From Crocinitomicaceae bacterium (lineage in GTDB: Bacteria > Bacteroidota > Bacteroidia > Flavobacteriales_D > Crocinitomicaceae), in NCBI GenBank assembly GCA_030833845.1, contig JAURGK010000007.1, forward strand, positions 24,739 to 88,738: DNA of 64,000 nucleotides. The letters are read 5' to 3'. Within the stretch, counting starts at the first letter, position 1; every line of letters begins with the position of its first letter. The notes below the pieces were generated by a model. That model was not told the DNA's origin. It did not search any database and was given only the letters and a program-made list of their open reading frames with translations. A program made the position numbers and the translations under genes. Below are positions 39,027 through 51,809 of this stretch, piece after piece.

Positions 39027-40493
39027 TTATTTTTTCACAAATTGTTTGCTGCTGTTACCAGCCGCTGTTTCAATTTGGATTGTGTAGATACCTGCTTTGA
39101 GGTCTTCTACATTGATTTCTTGTGTAATGCCATTGCCATTGTACTCAGCAACAACTTTGCCTGTAAGGTCAACGATACGAATTGCGTTCATAGATTCAGT
39201 AGCTGAAACAGTCAATATTGTATTTACTGGATTTGGGTAAACAGCAACGGTGTTGTTGTTTTCGTTCAATCCAGTTGTACAATCTTCACAACTTTCCCAA
39301 CATACTTCACCAATGGTAGCTGCACCTGTAACTGTGTAAGAACGGTTTGTAAATTGCCCACTTGGATCTGTAATTGTACAAGCTTCGCCACCTGCAAATT
39401 GTTCAGAAACGTTCCATCCGTCAATAGTGAATTTGTATTCAATTGCACCAGCTGGAATAGCTACAGTTACATCCCATACGTTGTCCATGTTGGCATCGGT
39501 CATAGGAGTACAAGTACCACACCAGCCGTTGAAGTTACCATTCAAGAATACACCTGCAGTTGTAGAACCACCGCCTGCAATGTAATCATTCATGTCTACG
39601 GCAAAAGAAACATCGTTCGTACAAACATCACAACTTGCAAAACAAACGTTAGGCAATGTAATGTCTCCAGCTACAGCATGAAAACGGTTTGTATACTGTC
39701 CGCTTGGATCAGTAACTGTACAAGATTCTCCACCAACGAATTCTTCTTGTGCATTCCAACCATCAATAGTGAATTTGTACTCAATTCCACCTGGAGGCAA
39801 AGGCAAAGTAGTTTCCCACATACCGTTACCCATATCAGTCATTGGGTTACAAGTACCACACCAACCATTAAATGTACCGTTAACAAATACACCACCAGCT
39901 AATGAACCACTGTATTGTGACATGTCTACGCGGAAAGTAACGTCATAGTCTTGAACAGCAAGTGGAACAGTGCGCTCATAAACAAAACGCCACCATCCTG
40001 GACCAAAATTGATATCAGCAGTTAGGGTGTTACCGCCATTTGAGATAGCAACGTTGTAAGTAATTGAACTTGCTGCTGCAGCAGGGCTGGCAATTTCAGC
40101 ACCGTTGATTACTTTAGCCAAACCAATATGAGCACCAAGGCCGTTCACTGTAAGTGTACCAGCGGCTGCATCATAGCTGTATGTTGCTGCGCCACCAACG
40201 TGTGGAGCAACGGGAGTGCCACAACCTTCTGGCGCACCTTGCCAAGCTTCTAGCCATGTAGAGCCGTCCATGTAGTGTGTCATGGTGCCATTGGCTTCAA
40301 ATTTAATTGAGTCGTCAAATAAACAAGCACGCGTAGTAACATCACCAGCGCCATTAGACCACCAGCTCATGTCGCCTGGGCCTGAAGGACCAACGCCCAA
40401 TGCAGCTGCTTGTGGCGCTAATTTCCAAGTGCCTTCAATCTGAGCAGAAAGACTCAAGATTGGAGCAAAAAGTAAAAAGTACAGTTTTTTCAT
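39027..40493 (-). CDS. Secreted protein with two tandem putative glucan-binding modules and T9SS type A sorting domain
   Basis: Signal peptide; two ~110-aa repeats (FRVDMSQYSG..VFVNGTFNGWCGTCNPMTD..YKFTIDGWNAQEEFVGGESCTVTDPSGQYTNR and FAVDMNDYIAGG..VFLNGNFNGWCGTCTPMTD..YKFTIDGWNVSEQFAGGEACTITDPSGQFTNR); C-terminal VYPNPVNTILTVSA...GIYTIQIETAAGNSSKQFVKK. Confidence 0.8.
   Translation of the reverse strand: MKKLYFLLFAPILSLSAQIEGTWKLAPQAAALGVGPSGPGDMSWWSNGAGDVTTRACLFDDSIKFEANGTMTHYMDGSTWLEAWQGAPEGCGTPVAPHVGGAATYSYDAAAGTLTVNGLGAHIGLAKVINGAEIASPAAAASSITYNVAISNGGNTLTADINFGPGWWRFVYERTVPLAVQDYDVTFRVDMSQYSGSLAGGVFVNGTFNGWCGTCNPMTDMGNGMWETTLPLPPGGIEYKFTIDGWNAQEEFVGGESCTVTDPSGQYTNRFHAVAGDITLPNVCFASCDVCTNDVSFAVDMNDYIAGGGSTTAGVFLNGNFNGWCGTCTPMTDANMDNVWDVTVAIPAGAIEYKFTIDGWNVSEQFAGGEACTITDPSGQFTNRSYTVTGAATIGEVCWESCEDCTTGLNENNNTVAVYPNPVNTILTVSATESMNAIRIVDLTGKVVAEYNGNGITQEINVEDLKAGIYTIQIETAAGNSSKQFVKK
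39260..39950 (-). repeat. Two in-frame tandem repeats coding for ~110-aa modules (boundaries approximate)
   Basis: High protein and partial DNA identity, e.g. aatagtgaatttgta(t/c)tcaatt(g/c)cacc appears in both copies. Confidence 0.8.
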
Positions 40494-40540: not shown

Positions 40541-40547
40541 GGGTTAA

Positions 40548-40568
40548 ATATAGTAAAAAATACAATAA
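40548..40568. promoter_or_regulatory. Putative PUL operator site (imperfect)
   Basis: ATATAGT-aaaaaat-ACAATAA; left arm 5/7, right arm 7/7 of TTATTGT-N7-ACAATAA. Confidence 0.5.
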
Positions 40569-40586: not shown

Positions 40587-42890
40587 TTATTCAACAATAA
40601 TATCATCAAAAAGTTCAAATGCAATCTTGTGTGTTCCACATAAAATTTCAAAAGTACCTTTTTCCGCTCGCCATTTGCCATCGGCACTTATGCGTTTGAG
40701 GGTGTTTGCATCAAAACTAAATTCAAGTGTCTTGTTTTCTCCCGGACGCAGAGAAACCTTGTAAAAATCAATCAATCTTTTGTTTTCTGGAGTGGTACTG
40801 GCATATAAATCACTCAAATAAATGGGCACAACCATTTTTATATGAGTGTTGTTAGGGTTGCTTACATTCACTTCAATGTCAAAAGTCCCTTTGTTTTCGT
40901 CTTTGTGGGCAAATCTGACCCCATTGATCATACCCATAGCATAGGATAGCCCAAAACCGAAATCCCATTGTGGATTGTATGCATTGAACTGTCCAGATTT
41001 TGCTCTAGCAACACTACCGGGGTGGTCATAAAATTCTATCACCCCATCGTATCGAGGATAGGTGTAAGGCAATCTACCACTAAAATCTGCATCTCCAGAA
41101 AGTAAAAGAGCCAATGCATCACCGCCAAAGTCTCCGGGTAAATATGCCTGAATAATTGCGTCGCAGAGTGGTTCAATGTCATTGATTATTCTCGGCCTTG
41201 CTTCTAATAATACCAAAACAACCTTCTTATTTGCCGACTTAGCTAAGCGCACTAACTCCTTTTGTTTTTCATCGAGCTGAAGACTATGAATATCACCAGG
41301 TTTTTCTGTGGATGGCAACTCTCCTAAGCAGAGCACGACAACGTCACTTTTCTTAATAGCCTTTTGGTAAGCCTTTAAGTTGTCGAAGCGAGAGGCTTCA
41401 AAATCGTTCTCCATGAAGAGCTCCACTCCTTTTTGATAATCGACCATGCCGGGCGTAGGAAAGAGACGTTGTACAGCGCGGTAAATGGTTTCTTCCCGAG
41501 AATTGAAATTGGTATCTAAGCCCTGCCATGTGTGCGTCCAGGCGCCATTGAGCATATTGAGATTATCTGCCCCTGGGCCCGCAATTAAAATGTGCTGCTT
41601 TGCGTTTAATGGCAATACACCACCTTCATTTTTTAGCAAGGTGATTGATTCCAGTGCGGCATTTCTGGCTATTGATTTAAATGCGTTACTTCCAAATTTT
41701 GTGTATGAGTCCATGTCTGGCATCGGATTTTGGAAAAGCCCAAGCTTATTCTTAACATAAAGAATGCGGCGCACTGCATCGTTGAGGCGCTCCATGGAGA
41801 TTTTACCATCCTGTACTGCTTGAATCATGTCTTGACAGTAGGTTTTGTATTGCGGATTGGAAGGCACCATACTCATATCTACTCCGGCATTAAAGGCCTG
41901 AATCGCTGCTTCGGATAGTGAAGCGGCAGTATGATGCACGGTATGGAGCATAATAAAATCTTCCCAATCAGAGACTACAAAACCTTTGAAGCCCCAATCT
42001 TTTTTAAGCGTTTGGGTAAGTAGTTGGTAATTGGCATGGCCCGGTATGCCATTAACTACACCAGAATTGATCATTAGTGTCAGCGCCCCTTGTTCAACAG
42101 CGGCTTTGAATGTAGGGAGGTACAATTCTTGCAAGTATTTCTCAGGAATGAAAGCAGGTGTGCGGTCACGGCCTGAAAAACTTGCACTATAACCTACAAA
42201 GTGTTTGAGACACGCGGCAACGTGGAATTGGTCTACGTCGCCCTTCGGCCCTTGATAGCCTTCAACAAGTGCAACACCCATTTTAGTAGCTAAAACTGGA
42301 TCTTCACCTAGGGTTTCGAAGTGTCTTGACCAAAGTGGTTGACGACCAAGATCAAGCACCGGTGAAAAATTCCAAGGAATACCAGACGCTCTGCATTCAT
42401 AGGCCGTTACTTCGCCCATTTGCTTGGCAAATTCAGGATTCCATGTTGCTGCTAGTCCAATTTCTTGGGGGAATAAAGTACCACCAACGGTATAGTTCAC
42501 CCCGTGTATGGCATCTATGCCATAAAGCAATGGGATATTTTGTTCGTGTTTGAGGTATGGTGCATGAATATCCGACATCACAGATTTCCACTCTTCAAGT
42601 TTTAAAGTGTGCCAGCCCACGTTCAGCACCGAACCAACGTGATAAACCTCTAGTGCCTCTTTAAGTTTGGCTTCGTCAATTTGCTCTGGTATAAGCGCTT
42701 GTCCTTTTTGGTCCGTCTTGTGAATTGCGTCAAGAGTTATTTGGCAAGTTTGACCCACCTTTTCTTCAATTGTCATATTGGCAATGAGCGCCTCGATGTC
42801 ATTTTCAGTAGGATGGGTAAAATACAATTTATCAATATCGCTAGCGCTAAAAAGCAAAGCAACTAATAAAGAGAATGCAATAAATTTCAT
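40587..42890 (-). CDS. Glycoside hydrolase family 3 beta-glucosidase
   Basis: NIPLLYGIDAIHGVNYTVGGTLFPQEIGLAATWNPE...KGFVVSDWEDFIML nucleophile region...GFGLSYAM. Confidence 0.95.
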   Translation of the reverse strand: MKFIAFSLLVALLFSASDIDKLYFTHPTENDIEALIANMTIEEKVGQTCQITLDAIHKTDQKGQALIPEQIDEAKLKEALEVYHVGSVLNVGWHTLKLEEWKSVMSDIHAPYLKHEQNIPLLYGIDAIHGVNYTVGGTLFPQEIGLAATWNPEFAKQMGEVTAYECRASGIPWNFSPVLDLGRQPLWSRHFETLGEDPVLATKMGVALVEGYQGPKGDVDQFHVAACLKHFVGYSASFSGRDRTPAFIPEKYLQELYLPTFKAAVEQGALTLMINSGVVNGIPGHANYQLLTQTLKKDWGFKGFVVSDWEDFIMLHTVHHTAASLSEAAIQAFNAGVDMSMVPSNPQYKTYCQDMIQAVQDGKISMERLNDAVRRILYVKNKLGLFQNPMPDMDSYTKFGSNAFKSIARNAALESITLLKNEGGVLPLNAKQHILIAGPGADNLNMLNGAWTHTWQGLDTNFNSREETIYRAVQRLFPTPGMVDYQKGVELFMENDFEASRFDNLKAYQKAIKKSDVVVLCLGELPSTEKPGDIHSLQLDEKQKELVRLAKSANKKVVLVLLEARPRIINDIEPLCDAIIQAYLPGDFGGDALALLLSGDADFSGRLPYTYPRYDGVIEFYDHPGSVARAKSGQFNAYNPQWDFGFGLSYAMGMINGVRFAHKDENKGTFDIEVNVSNPNNTHIKMVVPIYLSDLYASTTPENKRLIDFYKVSLRPGENKTLEFSFDANTLKRISADGKWRAEKGTFEILCGTHKIAFELFDDIIVE

Positions 42891-42899
42891 GGGGTATTA

Positions 42900-43985
42900 T
42901 TATTGAAATACGCGTACGTAATCGACAAACATTTTTTGTGGGAAGCTTGTACTGGCATCCGGAGATCCTGGCCAATTACCCCCAACGGCAACATTGAGAA
43001 TGATAAAAAACTTTTCCCGAAATTCAGACAATTCTGCTGGGCTTGTATCAATAGAATGATACTCAACATCGTCTAAAAGCCAATGAATGGAGTTGGCATC
43101 CCAGATGATAGAAAAGACATGGAATTCATCTGCAAACTTACCGGAGCTAAGAGACTTGCTACCACCAAACTGCGCATGAGACCCGGCGTTGCTCCAGTGA
43201 ACAGTACCGTGAATGGTTCTGTCATTGGCACCAGCGCCGCCAATTAATTCCATGATGTCAATTTCACCACATTCTGGCCAACCGACTGAAGTAATATTGT
43301 CGCCAAGCATCCAAATAGCAGGCCATAGCCCTTGCCCATAGGGTAGTGCAGCACGAACATCAATACGACCATATTTCCATGATTTGATACCTTGGGTTTT
43401 AATTCGGCTCGAGGTATAGTTAGATGTATTGAAAGTTTCGTTTTTTGCTGTAATAGTTAATAAGCCATCCGACACTACAGCGTTGTCTTGCTTGTAATAT
43501 TGTAATTCGTTATTTCCCCAACCCCAATTGCCTGTTCCAATATCGTAGGTCCAGTCTGAGGAAAGGCTTGCGCCATTGAATTCATCGTGCCAAACAAGTG
43601 TCATGTTGGGATAAGACAAGGGACTTATAAATCCAGAGCTTGGTGCGCCTGTATTTCCTGAACTTATTTCAATTACAACCTCTTCTGTTTTCTCAATGAA
43701 GGAAGTCTGAAGGGTGTGTGCTCGTGTACGAATAGTGTAGGTGCCAGAAGAGTTAAATACATGCGTTGCCTCGCCATCTTGTGTTTCAACGGTAATGCTA
43801 TCGTTGTTGTCAAAGAAAGTTATGGTATAGAAATTTACACTGTCGGCACTTGCTTGTACATGGACTTCGCCATTGGTAATAGTCAGTTGCGTTTGTAAAT
43901 TACTTGGCAGCCCGGGTGTTTTAGGCTCGTCTGGATCACAACTAAATAATGATAAGCTGAGGAATATTAGTGTTAAGAACTTCAT
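42900..43985 (-). CDS. Glycoside hydrolase family 16 laminarinase/beta-glucanase lipoprotein
   Basis: Lipobox LFSCD; catalytic motif GEIDIMELIG; WHDEFNGASLSSDWTYDIGTGNWGWGNNELQYY. Confidence 0.95.
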   Translation of the reverse strand: MKFLTLIFLSLSLFSCDPDEPKTPGLPSNLQTQLTITNGEVHVQASADSVNFYTITFFDNNDSITVETQDGEATHVFNSSGTYTIRTRAHTLQTSFIEKTEEVVIEISSGNTGAPSSGFISPLSYPNMTLVWHDEFNGASLSSDWTYDIGTGNWGWGNNELQYYKQDNAVVSDGLLTITAKNETFNTSNYTSSRIKTQGIKSWKYGRIDVRAALPYGQGLWPAIWMLGDNITSVGWPECGEIDIMELIGGAGANDRTIHGTVHWSNAGSHAQFGGSKSLSSGKFADEFHVFSIIWDANSIHWLLDDVEYHSIDTSPAELSEFREKFFIILNVAVGGNWPGSPDASTSFPQKMFVDYVRVFQ

Positions 43986-43995
43986 TTTTTAGAAT

Positions 43996-44847
43996 TTATT
44001 GGGTCTTGAGTTTTAAATACCACTTAAGACCGCCTTCGTGGTGTCCGTATTGTAAATGCAAAGTAGAATCAGTGGCTGACAAAATTCGGTATACACGTGG
44101 GCCGGTGTAAAAACCCAGAAAGGCATTGCCCGAGATGGTTATAGTCGGGTCTCCGTCTTCTGTGAGCAACCAGCTTTCGTTCATTTGGTTATCAAATGGA
44201 GCAGTAAAGTCGCCTAAGTTTTGGTAAGAGCCAGGAAAAGAAGCGGCAAGAGAATTGTGTAGATAAACGTCTCCGTTGGTGATCATATCGAATTTAAATC
44301 CATTCAAATGGAACACATATTGGTCATTATACAATCCACATCCTGGTTTTTCGTTCGGGCCTGCTGCCCACCATTCTGGAGTTGGGCCCAACGCGCTTTC
44401 TGGGTCTGGGCCCACACCCATGTGGCCAGAAGCGGCAGAGTCAACGACCCAAACCTTGAACCCGGGGCCGCTGATGCCTCCGGTCAGAATAGTGTAGTAA
44501 GGGTTGTTGAGAAGGCCAAAGTCGTCATTGGCAATCGTTACTTGCTGGCTAGAACTTCTGCTTCCGCCCTTTCCAAAAACGGTTAATTTAATGGTGTAGG
44601 TACCTGCATAAGGGTAAGACGCCGAAACATTGGCCCCTTGAGCCTTTGACCCATTTCCAAAGTCCCAAACACATTGAATATTTGGATTGTTGGCACTTAA
44701 TTCTATAATATTTTCGTTGGCTGCAGATACAGTCATCGTAAATTCAGCATCGGCAGCTGAAGGCGCCGGGCCAAGAGTTGGCTCATATTTATTACATGCA
44801 ACAAGTGCAAGACCAATGCTAAGAATGCTAAGCAAAATTGTTTTCAT
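43996..44847 (-). CDS. PKD-domain surface glycan-binding lipoprotein (SusE/F position)
   Basis: Lipobox LVACN; PKD-like NIQCVWDFGNGSKAQGANVSASYPYAGTYTIKLTVFGKGG. Confidence 0.82.
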   Translation of the reverse strand: MKTILLSILSIGLALVACNKYEPTLGPAPSAADAEFTMTVSAANENIIELSANNPNIQCVWDFGNGSKAQGANVSASYPYAGTYTIKLTVFGKGGSRSSSQQVTIANDDFGLLNNPYYTILTGGISGPGFKVWVVDSAASGHMGVGPDPESALGPTPEWWAAGPNEKPGCGLYNDQYVFHLNGFKFDMITNGDVYLHNSLAASFPGSYQNLGDFTAPFDNQMNESWLLTEDGDPTITISGNAFLGFYTGPRVYRILSATDSTLHLQYGHHEGGLKWYLKLKTQ

Positions 44848-44864
44848 GGTTTTGGTTTTAGTGA

Positions 44865-46325
44865 TTAATAACCAGGGTTTTGTGTCCAATTACCCCCTGC
44901 AAGGTCAATCTCTACTTGTGGAATAGGAAATAATTCATGTTTGCCTACAACAAATCCAGGGATATATTGTGCGGCTTGGCCAGTGCGAACCAGGTCAAAA
45001 AACCGCAAGCCTTCTCCGGACAACTCCATTCGGCGCTCATTGTAGACTTTCTGAATATTATTGATAGATGCTCCAGGGACACCTGCGCGTGAACGCACCT
45101 GATTGACAAGTTGGGTAGCGCGTGATGCATTGCCAATCTGGTAATTAGCTTCTGCAGCCATCAGTAGAACGTCGGCATATCGAAGCACTCTGTAATTAAC
45201 CGGGCTAGTAAGGTCATTGTCTGGCAAGCCAATTTCACCTTGACGCTTGATGTATTTGTTGTTGTAATATCCTGTATGGCCTCCCGCTCCTATTGCATAG
45301 GTGATTGATGCTGCGTTTGGTTGAGAAGCAATAAAGGCATCTATGTCCAATACGGTAGCATCTCGGCGCACATCGATAGGGGAGAACGCGGCGTAAAGCT
45401 CCTGAGTAGGAAGGTTATAGGAGTTTCCATCTCCGTAAACTGGGCCGGTATACTGACGAATGCCTTGGAAACCAACCGCGGCGTTGCCCTCAAGACAGAT
45501 CAAACAGCCGTAGCTTCCGCCTTCAAGTCCTGTATATTCGATATCAAAGATAGTTTCTGGATTGCCTTCGGCAGCCACACTAAATAGTTGCGTATAGTCT
45601 TGGTAAAGGCTGTATTGCCCAGAAGCGATGACTTCTTCTAGAATTTCAGCCGCTTGGGTAAATTTGTTTTGATATAAATACACCTTGCCAAGCAAAGACT
45701 TAGCAGCGCCTTGTGTGGCACGCCCTTTTTGAGCTGCAATCGGATTAAGCACAGCAGCAGCAGCGCTTAAATCAGCCTCGATTTGGGCATATACTTCTTC
45801 TTTTGGTGATCGAGGAATGGTGCGTGCTTCTTCAATTCCAATGCGCTTATCTAAAATGAGCGGAACGTCGCCAAAGAATTTGACAAGCTCAAAATAATAA
45901 TAGGCACGAAGGAATTTGGCTTCTGCAATGATGTGTGCTTTTCCCGGAAAATCAATATTGTCTTGATGTTCAAGGATATAGTTTGCTCGGGTGATTCCCG
46001 TATAATTCCAACGAAACACACTGCGCAATTCTGCATTGACACCACCGTGGGTCATGTTGTCAATGTCGTGTAGACCTTTAGAATCATTGACGCTTTCTCC
46101 TCCGGCAATAGCGTTGTCTGAGGCAATTTCACCAATCCAAAGTGTAAGAAAGGAACCTTGAAGTAAGTCATAGGCACCAACAAGGGCGCGCTCGAAATCT
46201 TCGGGGGTTTGAAAGAAATTCTCTGCATCTTGTGCATATGGCGGATCTACAGAGAGAAATTTTTCACATGAAGGCAAAGCAAGAATGCCTACAAAAGCGA
46301 TTAAGGTATAAAGTAGTTTTTTCAT
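44865..46325 (-). CDS. SusD/RagB-family nutrient-binding lipoprotein
   Basis: LPSCEKFLSVDPP...AEAKFLRAYYYFELVKFFGDVPLI...LLMAAEANYQIGNASRATQLVNQVRSRAG. Confidence 0.95.
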   Translation of the reverse strand: MKKLLYTLIAFVGILALPSCEKFLSVDPPYAQDAENFFQTPEDFERALVGAYDLLQGSFLTLWIGEIASDNAIAGGESVNDSKGLHDIDNMTHGGVNAELRSVFRWNYTGITRANYILEHQDNIDFPGKAHIIAEAKFLRAYYYFELVKFFGDVPLILDKRIGIEEARTIPRSPKEEVYAQIEADLSAAAAVLNPIAAQKGRATQGAAKSLLGKVYLYQNKFTQAAEILEEVIASGQYSLYQDYTQLFSVAAEGNPETIFDIEYTGLEGGSYGCLICLEGNAAVGFQGIRQYTGPVYGDGNSYNLPTQELYAAFSPIDVRRDATVLDIDAFIASQPNAASITYAIGAGGHTGYYNNKYIKRQGEIGLPDNDLTSPVNYRVLRYADVLLMAAEANYQIGNASRATQLVNQVRSRAGVPGASINNIQKVYNERRMELSGEGLRFFDLVRTGQAAQYIPGFVVGKHELFPIPQVEIDLAGGNWTQNPGY

Positions 46326-46336
46326 GGCTTTGTTAC

Positions 46337-49300
46337 TTAAAATTTGATTTGAATACCGCTCATTAATGAACGCGCTTGTGGGTACATACCATAATCTACC
46401 CCTGCTGACAATACATTTGATGCGCCTAGATCAGGATCGAAGCCCATGTAGCGGGTCAGGGTGATGAGATTGTTAGTAGCTACATAAATACGTAATGATT
46501 CGATATTTATTTTTCGCAATGCACTAGCTGGCAGTGTATAACCAAATTGAAGGTTACGCAAACGCACAAATGAGCCGTCCTCGACGTAATAATCAGAAAA
46601 TAGATTATTGTTGGTTGGTCCGGTGGTGAGGCGTGGGTGCTCATTGGTAGATCCTGGGCCGGTCCAACGGTCTATGACATAAGCCAATTGATTGGCATAG
46701 GGTTGCTGGCGCTCGTAGTTGCGAATGATTTCTTGGCCAAGTGCAGCATAAACATTACCTGAGAGGTCAAATCCATGGAGTCTGAAATTAAAAGCAAAGC
46801 CCATTGTAAAGTCAGGTATAGCTGAACCAAGGTATGTTTTGTCTGAGTCATCAGAAAAATTGATTTTACCGTCGCCATTCTGATCAACAAAAATCAAATC
46901 TCCGGGCTGCGCGCCTTCTTGAACTACTGCAGCATTGTCTATTTCTTCTTGTGTTTGGAACACTCCGGCTGTTTGATAACCAAAGAAATAACCAATTTCA
47001 TAACCTTGTTCGAAGCGCGTTGCTACATCACCACCCACACTGAAAGCAGCTCCGGGAATATACTGAATGCCCTCGGGTACACTTACAACTTTATTATTAA
47101 TGGTGGTAAAGTTAAAATTGAGGTTAGTTTGTAATAATTTTTTGCGATCGGATTGATAAGCCACCTCAAATTCCCAACCTTTGTTAGATACGTCACCGGC
47201 ATTGATAATTGGCGGGTAACCCCCAGGGCCATAAGAACCCAATAATGCCGAAACATCTGGCTGGAAGAGTAAATCATTGGTGTTTTTGATGAAGTAGTTC
47301 GTTGTGAAATTGAGCACTTTTAACCATGTAAGGTCTACTCCCACATTGAGTTGACGTGTAGTTTCCCATTTGAGATCTGGGTTGGCAGGTCGGCCAATAG
47401 CAACACCTTGTGTGATGAGGTCATTGAAAACATATACCCCTTCTCCGTTAAGTAGGGCGCGGTAGGCAAAGTTTGGGATTTGGTCGTTACCAGAAACCCC
47501 ATAACTCAAACGAAGTTTAAGAAAATCAATGGTTTTGCTCTTAAAAAAGTCTTCTTCTGAAAGCAACCACCCACCTGAAATTGTTGGGAAAATACCCCAA
47601 CGGCTATTGGGGCCAAATTTACTCGAGCCGTCTCTACGAAGAATACCCGAAACCAAGTATTTTTCTTTGTAGGCATATTCTGCACGGGCAAACGAAGACA
47701 ATAAACGCTCTTTAAATTCCCATGAATTCACATTGTTTAAGAATCCTCCTTGAGCGGTATTGGCAGAAATGTCTGCATAGTCCAAAGAGTTATTTGGGAT
47801 ACCAAATGCCACCCCATTCAATGATTGACCTTTGCGTTCAAAGACAGATGCACCAAGAGTTCCTTTGATTTTATGGTCTTCATTCCAAGTTTTCTCATAA
47901 TTCAAAAAGGACTCAAAAGTAAGGTCTAAAAAGCTAGATCTTTCTTCGTAAACGGCCGCCCCTCTTTCGATGAAAACGCTGTCTGCGATTTCTACTTGTG
48001 GAGATTCTAGAGCGGAATTGGCAGCCGTGTTGGCGTATTTGCCATCTCCGTACCACACAAGTGGCGAAAAGACTTTACTGTCAACGTTGGCGTAATTGTA
48101 ATTGAATCGATTAGTGAAAGAAAGATTTTCATTGAATTCATAAATAAACTCCTCTTTACCAACAAATTTGTTTGCAGTGCTCCAATTGTACTGATTCATC
48201 ATTTGGGCAATTGGATTGATGATATCGCTTACCTCTTCCATGTATGAGAAGGTGCCAGGGCTGCTGTAAATGGGTTCATTCGGGAAGGCATTGATTGTAT
48301 TGTATAATACTGAGCCAATGCCATTTTCAGGCAAGGTGCTGCGCATATCAGAAGAGAAGAGCAATACAGAATTGAGTTTGAGTTTTTCTGACATATCTGT
48401 AGCAAAATTCAAACGCGCATTGTAGCGCCCAAAGTTGGCTTTGTCTGCACCAACAATACCTTCTTGGTTAAAATACCCAAGGCCAATAGAATACCTTGTG
48501 TTGAGCGTTCCGCCGTTCAATGATAAATTGTGGCTTTGTACAGGCGCATTGCTAAAAACAGAATCTTGCCAGTTGGTGCCGGTGCCTAGATTGGTATTGG
48601 CAAATGGCATGCTTTGGCCTCCAAAAGCAAAGGCTTCATTTTTAATTACAGCATATTCCTCGGCAGTAAGCAAGTCGAGTTTACGAGCTGTTTGTTGAAT
48701 GCCGTAATACCCGTTATATTCGAGACTAGGCTTGCGGTTAATGGCGCCATTTTTAGTTTCTACAATAATTACACCATTGGCAGCGCGCACACCGTAAATA
48801 CCCGCAGTGGCATCCTTAAGTACGTTGATTGACTTGATATCTGATGGATTGAGCGCGTTGAGCCCCTCAGAGTCGTATACTACGCCATCTACCAAAATCA
48901 AGGGGTCGTTGTCACCGAAGGTGGAAAGTCCGCGAATGCGAATGTTTGAAGAGCCGCCAGGCGAACCCGAATTGCTTGAAATAGTAACACCCGAAACTTG
49001 CCCTTGTAAGGCCTGGTCCATACGGGTCATATTCATCTTTTCCAAATCTTCACCCTTTACTTTTGAAGTGGCGCCGGTGAGTTCTTTGGATTTGGCAGTG
49101 CCGTAACCCACAACTACCACATCTTTGGTATCTTGAGACAATTCTTGCAGGGTTACACTAACTACGGACTTCCCTTCTAGAGGAAATTCGAGTTTTTCAT
49201 AGCCCATCGCACTAAAAATGAGCACCGCAGAGTCTAAATTGCCAACTTGAATTTCAAATTGACCCTTACCGTCAGACAAAAAAAGTTTTTTGGTGTTTTT

Positions 49301-49426
49301 CACAGTGATTTTTACATAAGGAACAGCTTCCGCACGTTCATTTAGTATAGTACCACTGACAGACTGTCCATAGACTTGCGAGACGCCTATTAATAAAAAT
49401 AGGGTCATGACGAGTTTTTTGATCAT
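46337..49426 (-). CDS. SusC/RagA-family TonB-dependent receptor
   Basis: CarboxypepD_reg-like N-terminus, VVVVGYGTAKSKELTGA plug, SNIRIRGLSTFGDNDPLILVDGV. Confidence 0.96.
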   Translation of the reverse strand: MIKKLVMTLFLLIGVSQVYGQSVSGTILNERAEAVPYVKITVKNTKKLFLSDGKGQFEIQVGNLDSAVLIFSAMGYEKLEFPLEGKSVVSVTLQELSQDTKDVVVVGYGTAKSKELTGATSKVKGEDLEKMNMTRMDQALQGQVSGVTISSNSGSPGGSSNIRIRGLSTFGDNDPLILVDGVVYDSEGLNALNPSDIKSINVLKDATAGIYGVRAANGVIIVETKNGAINRKPSLEYNGYYGIQQTARKLDLLTAEEYAVIKNEAFAFGGQSMPFANTNLGTGTNWQDSVFSNAPVQSHNLSLNGGTLNTRYSIGLGYFNQEGIVGADKANFGRYNARLNFATDMSEKLKLNSVLLFSSDMRSTLPENGIGSVLYNTINAFPNEPIYSSPGTFSYMEEVSDIINPIAQMMNQYNWSTANKFVGKEEFIYEFNENLSFTNRFNYNYANVDSKVFSPLVWYGDGKYANTAANSALESPQVEIADSVFIERGAAVYEERSSFLDLTFESFLNYEKTWNEDHKIKGTLGASVFERKGQSLNGVAFGIPNNSLDYADISANTAQGGFLNNVNSWEFKERLLSSFARAEYAYKEKYLVSGILRRDGSSKFGPNSRWGIFPTISGGWLLSEEDFFKSKTIDFLKLRLSYGVSGNDQIPNFAYRALLNGEGVYVFNDLITQGVAIGRPANPDLKWETTRQLNVGVDLTWLKVLNFTTNYFIKNTNDLLFQPDVSALLGSYGPGGYPPIINAGDVSNKGWEFEVAYQSDRKKLLQTNLNFNFTTINNKVVSVPEGIQYIPGAAFSVGGDVATRFEQGYEIGYFFGYQTAGVFQTQEEIDNAAVVQEGAQPGDLIFVDQNGDGKINFSDDSDKTYLGSAIPDFTMGFAFNFRLHGFDLSGNVYAALGQEIIRNYERQQPYANQLAYVIDRWTGPGSTNEHPRLTTGPTNNNLFSDYYVEDGSFVRLRNLQFGYTLPASALRKINIESLRIYVATNNLITLTRYMGFDPDLGASNVLSAGVDYGMYPQARSLMSGIQIKF

Positions 49427-49447: not shown

Positions 49448-49480
49448 TAAATATAACTAAAAATTAAATTATTGTACAAA
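49448..49480 (-). promoter_or_regulatory. susC promoter
   Basis: On the minus strand TTTG (49480-49477)-N21-TATATTTA (49455-49448); the -33 element lies in the spacer of the operator-like palindrome. Confidence 0.5.
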
Positions 49481-49489
49481 TAACAATAA
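49469..49489. promoter_or_regulatory. Putative PUL operator site (perfect arms), proximal to susC
   Basis: TTATTGT-acaaata-ACAATAA. Confidence 0.65.
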
Positions 49490-49526
49490 CTTTTGAAAAG
49501 AGTTCAAGGGCAATTTTGTTAAAAAA

Positions 49527-49552
49527 GAAACGGAGACACTCTTCTCCGTTTC
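49527..49552 (-). terminator. Terminator of the MFS-Nudix regulator operon
   Basis: GAAACGGAGA-6 nt-TCTCCGTTTC, 10-bp perfect stem followed by TTTTTT on the minus strand. Confidence 0.9.
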
Positions 49553-49616
49553 AATTGATTATTAACCTGTATGACGCTTCAAATTCGAGTGAAAGCGCAA
49601 GTCGAAGATACAAACA

Positions 49617-49637
49617 TTATTGTAAAAAATACAATAA
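49617..49637. promoter_or_regulatory. Putative PUL operator site (perfect arms), distal
   Basis: TTATTGT-aaaaaat-ACAATAA. Confidence 0.65.
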
Positions 49638-49648
49638 GTAGTAAAAAT

Positions 49649-50344
49649 TTACATTTTAAATGTATAATCTCCGTTAATGAGCTGTTTTTGATAGCTTTCT
49701 CTATCAAACTTATAAAGTTTGGCTGGCCGATGCTTGACATTTTTTTGTTTTTCTTCAAGGCCAATTAATGGTATGTATTTGATTTTTTTACGAAAATTTG
49801 CTTTGTCTAGTTCTTGTTCAAAAGCAAATTCGTAAAGTTGCTGAAATTCATGAAGCGTAAAGCGCTCTGCAAGCAAGTCAAAACAGACGGGCTCATGATG
49901 CAATTTTTGTTTCAGTATTTCATAGGTGCTTTCAAGGATATGGTTGTGGTCAAATGCCAGAGTTGGCAAAGCATTGATGGGTACCCAGCTGATTTCTTCT
50001 GCAAATGAGGATGCCTTCACATGTAATGCATCAATACGAACCAAGGCGAAGTAGCTTATGGTAATTACGCGCCCCTGAGGGTGTCTTTTGGGGTGTCCAA
50101 AAGTTTGAGATTGGTGCATGGGAATATGGTCAAGACCGGTGAGCTCTTTGAGCACCCTTTCAGCCGCCACAGGGAGGTCTTCGTCAGGGTAAACCAAATC
50201 TCCAGGGATGGCCCAATAATTATTATAGGGCTCCATAGCTCGCTTGATTACAAGGGCTTTAATTTGCCCTGCTTCGTAGCCAAAAATAATACAGTCAACA
50301 GAAAAAGCTGCATTAAAAAAGTCGTGAAATTCTATCTTGTACAT
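49649..50344 (-). CDS. Nudix-domain + winged-helix transcriptional regulator (NrtR/AraR-like)
   Basis: N-terminal Nudix fold (VDCIIFGYEAGQIKALVIKRAMEPYNNYWAIPGDLVYPDEDLPVAAERVLKELTGL) with a C-terminal wHTH-like region (FTLHEFQQLYEFAFEQELDKANFRKKIKYIPLIGL). Confidence 0.88.
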   Translation of the reverse strand: MYKIEFHDFFNAAFSVDCIIFGYEAGQIKALVIKRAMEPYNNYWAIPGDLVYPDEDLPVAAERVLKELTGLDHIPMHQSQTFGHPKRHPQGRVITISYFALVRIDALHVKASSFAEEISWVPINALPTLAFDHNHILESTYEILKQKLHHEPVCFDLLAERFTLHEFQQLYEFAFEQELDKANFRKKIKYIPLIGLEEKQKNVKHRPAKLYKFDRESYQKQLINGDYTFKM

Positions 50345-50349
50345 TCTGT

Positions 50350-51774
50350 TTAGTGTCCGCTAGCAGGGGCATCAAAGGTATCAATGCCTTTGTTTTTAAG
50401 AATAGTTTTGGTACGAATAGCAAAGTAAGCAAGATATATAAAGCACACCACGCCAACCCAATAGGATTGTTGAATCCCAAGGAGTTTTTCGTCGGCTAAA
50501 GCTCCTTGTGCCAATGAAATAAAACCACCGCCCATGATCATAAGGATCAAAAGGCTTGAGGCAGTATTGGTGCGTTTACCTAGACCAGCAATGCCCAAGG
50601 TAAAGATGCACGGCCAAAGCGTTGAACAGAATAAACCTACAGAAATAAAGGCAAAAACACTCACATTGCCAGCGCTAAAAATTCCAACAAGTAAGGCCAC
50701 TATTCCTAAGGATGAATAAATGACGATTTGTCTAACTGGATTGCCGCTTGAAATAAAATCTGCTGCAATAAGCACAAAGACCAAGCCTAGATATGGAATA
50801 AATGAAGAAATATCCGATCCACCTATTGTATTGGCGAGGGCAAATATTCCGAAGGCAACCAGAGGCAATACCACTCCCATTATACGATTGAAAATTTTAG
50901 ATTTTTCAAAAACACCTGCTGCTGATGCCCAACGGCCAATCATCATAGATGCCCAAAACAGACTGACAAATGGAGCTACCTCGTCTTCACTTGTGCCTAT
51001 TTTTTGTTTCATAAATTCAGGCAGGTTACTTGCTGTGGCAACTTCCACACCCACATACAAGAAGATGGCTATCATGGCTAAAATGACTTGTGGTTCGCGG
51101 AGCGTGCTTAAGACTTGTCCTGGTTCGTTTTGGCTATCGTCGCCAATGGAATCAGGAACCGATGAAAACTTAAAGAATAAGGCTGCTAACACGAAAGTGG
51201 CGCCTAGAATTAGGTAAGGCCCCTGAACTGCTGTCAAATCAAGGCTGGTTTCTCCTTTGGGCAAACCACCAAAAATGGCAAACGATACAATGACAGGCCC
51301 TATGGTGGTGCCTAAATTATTGATGCCGCCCGCCATGCTGAGCCGGGCGTTGCCTTTCGCTGGGTCTCCCATCTGAATAGCCAAGGGATTGGCGGCAGTT
51401 TGCTGCAATGAAAAGCCAAGGCCTACAATGAAGAGTCCGCTAAGTAAAAGTGGAAATGAACCCCCGTTGGTAGATGCCGGGATGAATAGAAGGGTGCCTG
51501 CGGCAGAAATCAAGAGCCCAAGGGCAAGACCGTTTCTATAACCCAATTTGTTGAGAATATCTTGTTTGAGTAAGCCAGAAATACCAAAATAGATTAAGGA
51601 CCCCACAGTGTAAGCCACATAGAAGGCAAAAGCTATGAGCTGTGATTCAAATTGACTCAGATCAAGCGCTTTTTTAAAAACAGGAATGAGGATGTCGTTT
51701 GATGCAGCTACAAATCCCCAGAAAAAAAAGATGACAATAAGTGTCCCGAAGGCACTGTAGTTAGTTTTTTGCAT
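50350..51774 (-). CDS. Sugar MFS transporter (FucP/GluP-like)
   Basis: FGTLIVIFFFWGFVAASNDILIPVFKKALDLSQFESQLIAFAFYVAYTVGS...QQTAANPLAIQMGDP. Confidence 0.92.
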   Translation of the reverse strand: MQKTNYSAFGTLIVIFFFWGFVAASNDILIPVFKKALDLSQFESQLIAFAFYVAYTVGSLIYFGISGLLKQDILNKLGYRNGLALGLLISAAGTLLFIPASTNGGSFPLLLSGLFIVGLGFSLQQTAANPLAIQMGDPAKGNARLSMAGGINNLGTTIGPVIVSFAIFGGLPKGETSLDLTAVQGPYLILGATFVLAALFFKFSSVPDSIGDDSQNEPGQVLSTLREPQVILAMIAIFLYVGVEVATASNLPEFMKQKIGTSEDEVAPFVSLFWASMMIGRWASAAGVFEKSKIFNRIMGVVLPLVAFGIFALANTIGGSDISSFIPYLGLVFVLIAADFISSGNPVRQIVIYSSLGIVALLVGIFSAGNVSVFAFISVGLFCSTLWPCIFTLGIAGLGKRTNTASSLLILMIMGGGFISLAQGALADEKLLGIQQSYWVGVVCFIYLAYFAIRTKTILKNKGIDTFDAPASGH

Positions 51775-51788
51775 GGTAGTCGTTAAAG

Positions 51789-51809
51789 TTTTGGTCCAAA
51801 TTACAATAA
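51789..51809. promoter_or_regulatory. Putative PUL operator site (imperfect) upstream of the MFS transporter
   Basis: TTTTGGT-ccaaatt-ACAATAA; left arm 5/7, right arm 7/7. Confidence 0.45.

Follow-up and report, generated by a model that had tools for sequence, protein, structure and literature searches.

The NrtR family of Nudix regulators includes BtAraR (BT0354), the L-arabinose-responsive repressor of Bacteroides thetaiotaomicron, for which several structures are available (PDB 5bs6, 5dd4, 5ddg, and 5deq; PMC4666351). Its operator is a 21-bp semi-palindrome, represented by AGTGT-N7-ACACT in the EMSA probe and by AGTGT-N7-ACACC in the co-crystal. In that structure Lys179 recognises the first G and Arg180 is intercalated between T8 and G9; the bases opposite G9 and T10 are touched by Asp178 and Asn181, and Arg205 lies in the minor groove (PMC4666351). 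Six residues (K179, R180, N181, K184, K204, and R205) are reported to be absolutely conserved among the orthologs of AraR (PMC4666351). BtXylR (BT0791), the predicted xylose regulator, also belongs to the sugar-responsive Bacteroidetes branch of the family (PMC3878776), and the more distant SoNrtR (PDB 3gz5/3gz6) is an ADP-ribose-responsive regulator of NAD metabolism. At the RNA level, B. thetaiotaomicron possesses the sRNAs FopS and GibS, with FopS repressing susC translation (PMC11697453). The PUL regulators found in the literature that we surveyed are mostly hybrid two-component systems or SusR-like proteins, and our search retrieved no paper tying a Nudix regulator to laminarin PULs.

The window, that is, the entire 64,000-nt stretch of Crocinitomicaceae DNA that we analysed, contains a beta-glucan PUL with its own regulator of this family:

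50350..51774, minus strand: MFS sugar transporter of the GluP/NagP/FucP type (below the NCBIfam cut-offs), first gene of the regulator operon
49649..50344, minus strand: NrtR-family (AraR-like) Nudix regulator, 231 aa, presumed owner of the operators
46337..49426, minus strand: susC (TIGR04056, 784 bits)
44865..46325, minus strand: susD (PF07980, PF14322)
43996..44889, minus strand: PKD-domain surface protein gene (PF18911)
42900..43985, minus strand: GH16 endo-beta-glucanase gene (PF00722)
40587..42890, minus strand: GH3 beta-glucosidase-like gene (PF00933, PF01915)
39027..40493, minus strand: T9SS-exported protein with two CBM48-like domains (PF02922, PF18962)

The regulator matched PF21906 with 66.3 bits (cut-off 27), PF19368 (AraR_C) with 40 bits (cut-off 23.8), and PF00293. 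It combines a C-terminal NrtR winged helix with an N-terminal Nudix domain whose catalytic box is degenerate (GDLVYPDEDLPVAAERVLKELTG): the signature GX5EX7REUXEEXGU reads G-DLVYP-D-EDLPVAA-ER-V-L-KE, with loss of the catalytic Glu positions. Its best PDB match was BtAraR (5bs6, E 5e-45). In SoNrtR the domains are arranged in the same way (E 1e-22 for the PDB chain), but the similarity is lower and the effector and regulon are others; BtXylR, compared here by its published description, differs in regulating xylose genes (PMC3878776). The likeness to BtAraR comprises the two-domain Nudix and winged helix architecture, a 21-bp palindrome with an N7 centre and an arm-N7-arm geometry identical to that of the operator predicted in the window, tandem sites before the main operon, and the presence of susC/susD operons among the targets. 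Moreover, the equivalents of the base-contacting residues D178, K179, N181, R183, K184, and R205 are conserved, as are those of the sugar-contacting R34, R86, and H131 (R35, R87, and H133 in the window regulator).

However, several characters depart from those of BtAraR. Setting aside the ortholog rows L021, L027, L030, L031, L034, L038, and L043, the intercalating Arg180 is replaced by A182 and Lys204 by H205, in the window regulator and also in its orthologs, so that four of the six residues described as absolutely conserved in AraR are kept. The pocket carries F36M, G48D, and F49L. The geometry of the AraR operator is retained, with the half-site ATTGT instead of AGTGT (the first G is changed to T and the TGT core is kept). 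The locus consists of MFS, SusCD, GH16, GH3, and CBM48 genes rather than arabinose catabolic ones, and, whereas BtAraR is known from Bacteroides/Prevotella, the window regulator comes from a beta-glucan PUL of Flavobacteriales. Judging from these sequence characters, regulator and operator would represent a sugar-responsive NrtR regulator with 21-bp operators and not a true AraR. A sugar effector is likely because the three BtAraR residues that hydrogen-bond the sugar are conserved, and both the gene content (GH16, GH3, and a glucose/galactose-type MFS) and the pocket residues indicate that it is probably a glucose-type sugar.

The original prediction placed copies of the palindrome TTATTGT-N7-ACAATAA, as candidate operators of the Nudix regulator, at four positions, all of which proved correct:

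49469..49489, minus strand: predicted proximal susC operator, TTATTGTTATTTGTACAATAA, exact match to the palindrome
49617..49637, minus strand: predicted distal operator, TTATTGTATTTTTTACAATAA, exact match, starting 11 nt past the regulator stop codon
40548..40568, minus strand: predicted operator of the T9SS/CBM48 gene, TTATTGTATTTTTTACTATAT, 12 of 14 arm positions matched, right arm overlapping the -7 element TATATTTA
51789..51809, minus strand: predicted operator of the MFS-regulator operon, TTATTGTAATTTGGACCAAAA, 12 of 14 arm positions matched

The internal genes were correctly described as devoid of the motif, since no site with up to three mismatches precedes susD or the PKD, GH16, GH3, and regulator genes in the window. 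With the same tolerance, the window contained 16 matches against 9.4 ± 3.0 expected, a number reached in 2 of 100 shuffles. Across the 2.14-Mb genome, sites with zero or one mismatch occurred only at the two susC positions; the remaining 30 matches all had two mismatches, and the total of 32 compares with 27 for a reversed-pattern control. The genome-wide scan suggested with the prediction therefore singled out the exact susC pair as unique and left the two-mismatch matches at the level of chance given by the reversed control. Six two-mismatch sites outside the locus were inspected by eye as possible extra targets in the same genome, and none was convincing. By these window and genome counts the sites at 40548 and 51789 are not significant; they become credible only through their conservation in relatives.

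We compared the loci of regulator orthologs from within the genus and from elsewhere in the family. In 13 close relatives, the proximal susC operator had a mean pairwise identity of 0.95, against 0.62 in the neighbouring spacer, and 20 of the 21 columns of the distal operator were invariant; operator identities ranged from 0.95 to 0.99 compared with 0.46–0.62 in the adjoining spacers. Both susC sites are present in L046–L057 (77–84% regulator identity), exact except for a one-mismatch proximal copy in L056. Outside the genus the gene order of the locus differs, a common arrangement being GH3-regulator followed by a T9SS or GH16 gene, and sites occur both before GH3 and behind the regulator. 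The GH3 gene thus has a site in those genera in which it is the first gene of the operon, and none in the window: operators track the heads of transcription units, as predicted, even in rearranged loci. We found 36 sites with at most one mismatch, distributed in 18 of 24 loci from other genera, versus a mean of 0.7 and a maximum of 4 sites for permuted arms and 0–2 sites for any spacer of 3–12 other than 7; the other six loci had no such site within the stretch compared. The motif thus recurs in most orthologous loci, always with a spacer of 7.

The predicted operators lie close to the following elements:

49448..49455, minus strand: -7 element of the susC promoter P2, TATATTTA, of the Bacteroidetes TAnnTTTG type, with all 8 columns invariant across 13 relatives
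40544..40551, minus strand: -7 element of the T9SS gene, TATATTTA, overlapping the predicted operator
49603..49610, minus strand: -7-like element of the putative promoter P1, TATCTTCG, 6 nt past the distal operator, TA--TT-G invariant in 13 relatives
49527..49552, minus strand: intrinsic terminator hairpin between the susC operators, 25 of 26 columns invariant

Among the relatives compared, 12–14 nt separate the end of the proximal susC operator from an invariant -7 element TATATTT(A/G), and in L073 the -7 elements of susC and of the T9SS gene both read TATATTTG, the full TAnnTTTG consensus. A TTTG within the proximal site had been proposed as the -33 element, but it is not conserved, being absent in L056, L057, L070, and L072. 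The overlap proposed between the 40548 site and the -7 element of the T9SS gene does exist, and would explain why this site has an asymmetric arm. The predicted operators overlap or abut -7 elements, and their apparent location on -33/-7 regions is consistent with repression. The MFS gene could in addition be partly transcribed by read-through from dxs, which ends only 42 bp upstream in the window.

It has also been suggested that the two susC sites form a looped unit across the terminator, a mechanism that would be compatible with their being operators. The terminator (GAAACGGAGAAGAGTGTCTCCGTTTC-TTTTTT, 49552-49527, minus strand) does lie between them, both sites are conserved, and their spacing, 147–150 bp in one clade and 128–129 bp in another, differs by about two helical turns. 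However, the L177–L185 sub-clade has a site only at the distal position, and L071 and L073 only the susC-proximal one, so that the pair is dispensable, and in three clades the distal site has its own -7-like element behind it. In the L070/L072/L121 clade this is TATATTTA, 4 nt past the distal site, with a different terminator closing a stretch of ~70 nt, and in L177–L185 TATATTTA follows 6–7 nt after the single operator of the regulator-susC gap. Nothing beyond this possible coincidence of phase speaks for looping, which appears unlikely; more probably, each susC site serves as the operator of a separate promoter.

The presence of the motif follows that of the regulator. Among 118 genomes of the family, the exact site occurred in 30 of the 35 with the ortholog and in 8 of the 83 without it, whereas a reversed control pattern exhibited no such association (2 of 35 and 12 of 83, respectively). 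Restricting the comparison to the genus is fairer because many of its 27 ortholog-free genomes still carry a paralog, and here the exact site was found in 43 of 59 genomes with the ortholog versus 2 of 27 without it; since related genomes are not independent, the Fisher p values of 1e-15 (family) and 1e-8 (genus) overstate the certainty of both associations. Sixteen genus genomes have the ortholog without an exact site. Among the 15 whose loci were examined (all but G075), 13 had a site with one or two mismatches, either next to the regulator or where sites are usually found; in most cases this was a one-mismatch site between the regulator and susC. The other two, L182 (G178) and L189 (G171, a short contig), had none with up to two mismatches.

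Could the sites instead belong to another transcription factor that co-occurs with the locus, such as a second NrtR paralog or a Crp-type global regulator? The genome does contain a second NrtR-family gene (G000:C11:28614-29330), and in Bacteroides, AraR sites are found together with Crp-type sites (PMC3878776). However, nearly all of the ortholog-free genus genomes just mentioned, many of them with the paralog, lack the motif, and the published Bacteroides Crp-like motif, TATGTTnTAnAACATA, differs from it (PMC3878776). In addition, the paralog clade keeps the Arg180 of BtAraR and paralog-carrying genomes contain perfect TTAGTGT-N7-ACACTAA palindromes, which in G031 and G088 lie close to it; the paralog therefore probably reads AGTGT. 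Ownership by another factor is therefore highly improbable.

The pattern of Ala versus Arg180 and ATTGT versus AGTGT would fit a switch of DNA specificity, as a correlation with one possible exception. This is a distant NrtR relative in a Tannerella MAG (L060:7859), which has Arg180 but carries Ile at position 179, and which has a TTATTGT-like site, TTATTGTATTCACTACAATTT, just upstream of its own gene; we did not retain a simple rule pairing Arg180 with AGTGT. In the genome under study, perfect TTAGTGT-N7-ACACTAA palindromes, likely of the paralog operator type, occur at G000:C25:21872 (L099:9873) and G000:C34:38387 (L100:8388), and the genes behind them resemble, as read by eye, a FabH-like synthase and a dehydrogenase. 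The paralog itself (on G000:C11; L098:8091-11103) is divergent from genes that, also by eye, resemble a BadF-type kinase and a GH13 amylase, neighbours that suggest a second regulon, alpha-glucan or amino-sugar.

For the two imperfect sites, the relatives provide the missing argument. The T9SS site retains the form TTATTGTATTTTTTACTATAT in L065–L067, where the contig extends to the site; the same asymmetric site occurs in L065–L067 and L070–L073, and the form TTATTGT-N7-ACTATAT is kept in at least eight loci. The MFS site retains the form TTATTGTAATTTGGACCAAAA in L046–L057. At its position L070, L071, L072, and many congeners have an exact palindrome; this is often the case in congeners at 68–73% regulator identity, where dxs and MFS are then separated by 127–166 bp. 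The 51789 site would thus be a real operator, worn on one arm in the clade of the window. Although two-mismatch matches are at chance level genome-wide, this conservation of position and form makes a chance origin of both sites in AT-rich DNA, with the susC pair alone being real, highly improbable.

Conservation across species and genera, co-occurrence with the ortholog and not with the paralog, the strict 7-bp spacing, and the BtAraR-like 21-bp geometry all uphold the proposal of a Nudix-regulator operator; a 21-bp palindrome, of the size that NrtR dimers would be expected to bind, is present, conserved, and co-occurring with the regulator ortholog. We consider it very likely that the locus-encoded NrtR-family Nudix regulator has its operator in this palindrome, within a model of coordinated repression and sugar derepression, taken as a whole. 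Given the AraR precedent, in which the sugar frees the repressor, the simplest model is that the MFS-regulator operon, the susC operon, and the T9SS gene are repressed in concert. We infer binding, repression, and the identity of the effector as follows. A regulator dimer would set one winged helix on each ATTGT/ACAAT half-site, like BtAraR on AGTGT-N7-ACACT. The ligand-free protein would cover four promoters (those of MFS-regulator, P1, susC P2, and the T9SS gene) at their -33 or their -7 region and thereby repress them. When GH16 and GH3 break the glucan, a glucose-type sugar would reach the cytoplasm, probably via the MFS carrier, and enter the inactive Nudix pocket; the winged helices would then shift and all units would be derepressed together.

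The distal operator is followed by one more predicted feature:

49527..49602, minus strand: candidate short RNA or attenuated leader of ~80 nt, with a 5' hairpin CGCTT..AAGCG, the invariant CAGGTTAATAATCA, and the terminator hairpin (z = -3.0)

The stretch from the distal operator to the terminator is more conserved than any spacer, with a TAnnTTmG -7-like element, CGCTTTCACTC invariant in 11 of 11 columns, and CAGGTTAATAATCA in 14 of 14. The short stem CGCTT/RRGCG is intact in all 12 distinct sequences, where 15 of 15 pairs of the RNA hold and changes are one-sided only, which gives no covariation support from that set. In the more distant L120, the terminator stem has a compensatory change from A-U to G-C and the 5' stem is re-registered. 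The invariant loop sequences of the 5' hairpin (CACTC, 49587-49597) and of the terminator (GAGTG, 49527-49552) are complementary to each other and might form a kissing interaction. In L177–L185 (e.g., L177:8974-9100), a leader of ~95 nt with a compensated hairpin, GTGGGGAGGCAACTCCCCAC or GCAGGGAGGCAACTCCCTGC, directly precedes susC. A covariance model found a single copy of the RNA in the genome and detects L120 but misses the L070 and L177 clades, so that homology of the leaders across clades is unsupported.

Like FopS and GibS (PMC11697453), the candidate P1 RNA would be short, end in an intrinsic terminator, and be connected with the control of susC. It differs from them in its single copy, its location immediately before susC and behind an operator specific to the PUL, and the lack of any significant match in Rfam 15 that would assign it to a known RNA family such as that of FopS. 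Our search for targets by complementarity yielded no convincing candidate and no exact match longer than 10 nt. A duplex of 12–13 bp with the 3' end of susD and the start of the PKD gene, seen in three relatives, was discounted because it relies on G-U pairing and coincides with SusD codons that are themselves conserved (NPGY-stop). The conserved stretch and the -7-like elements behind the distal site across clades lead us to read this site as the operator of a promoter of its own, P1. We propose, tentatively and from sequence comparison, that the distal operator may control P1 and that its ~80-nt structured, terminated transcript might be either a small RNA specific to the PUL or a leader of susC subject to attenuation. 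This putative transcript is the least explained and most interesting part of the locus. If it exists, one sugar sensor would set both susC transcription, through P2, and an RNA-level brake or switch before susC, and in the sister clade the P1 transcript would run via a different structured leader straight into susC.

The ortholog and paralog clades, which differ at Arg180 and apparently in their half-sites, offer a natural test of the DNA specificity of the family. If our model is correct, a glucan PUL under the local control of a cytosolic NrtR-type sugar sensor, with a four-site regulon found in a clade of Flavobacteriales MAGs, would represent a simple feedback route outside Bacteroides.
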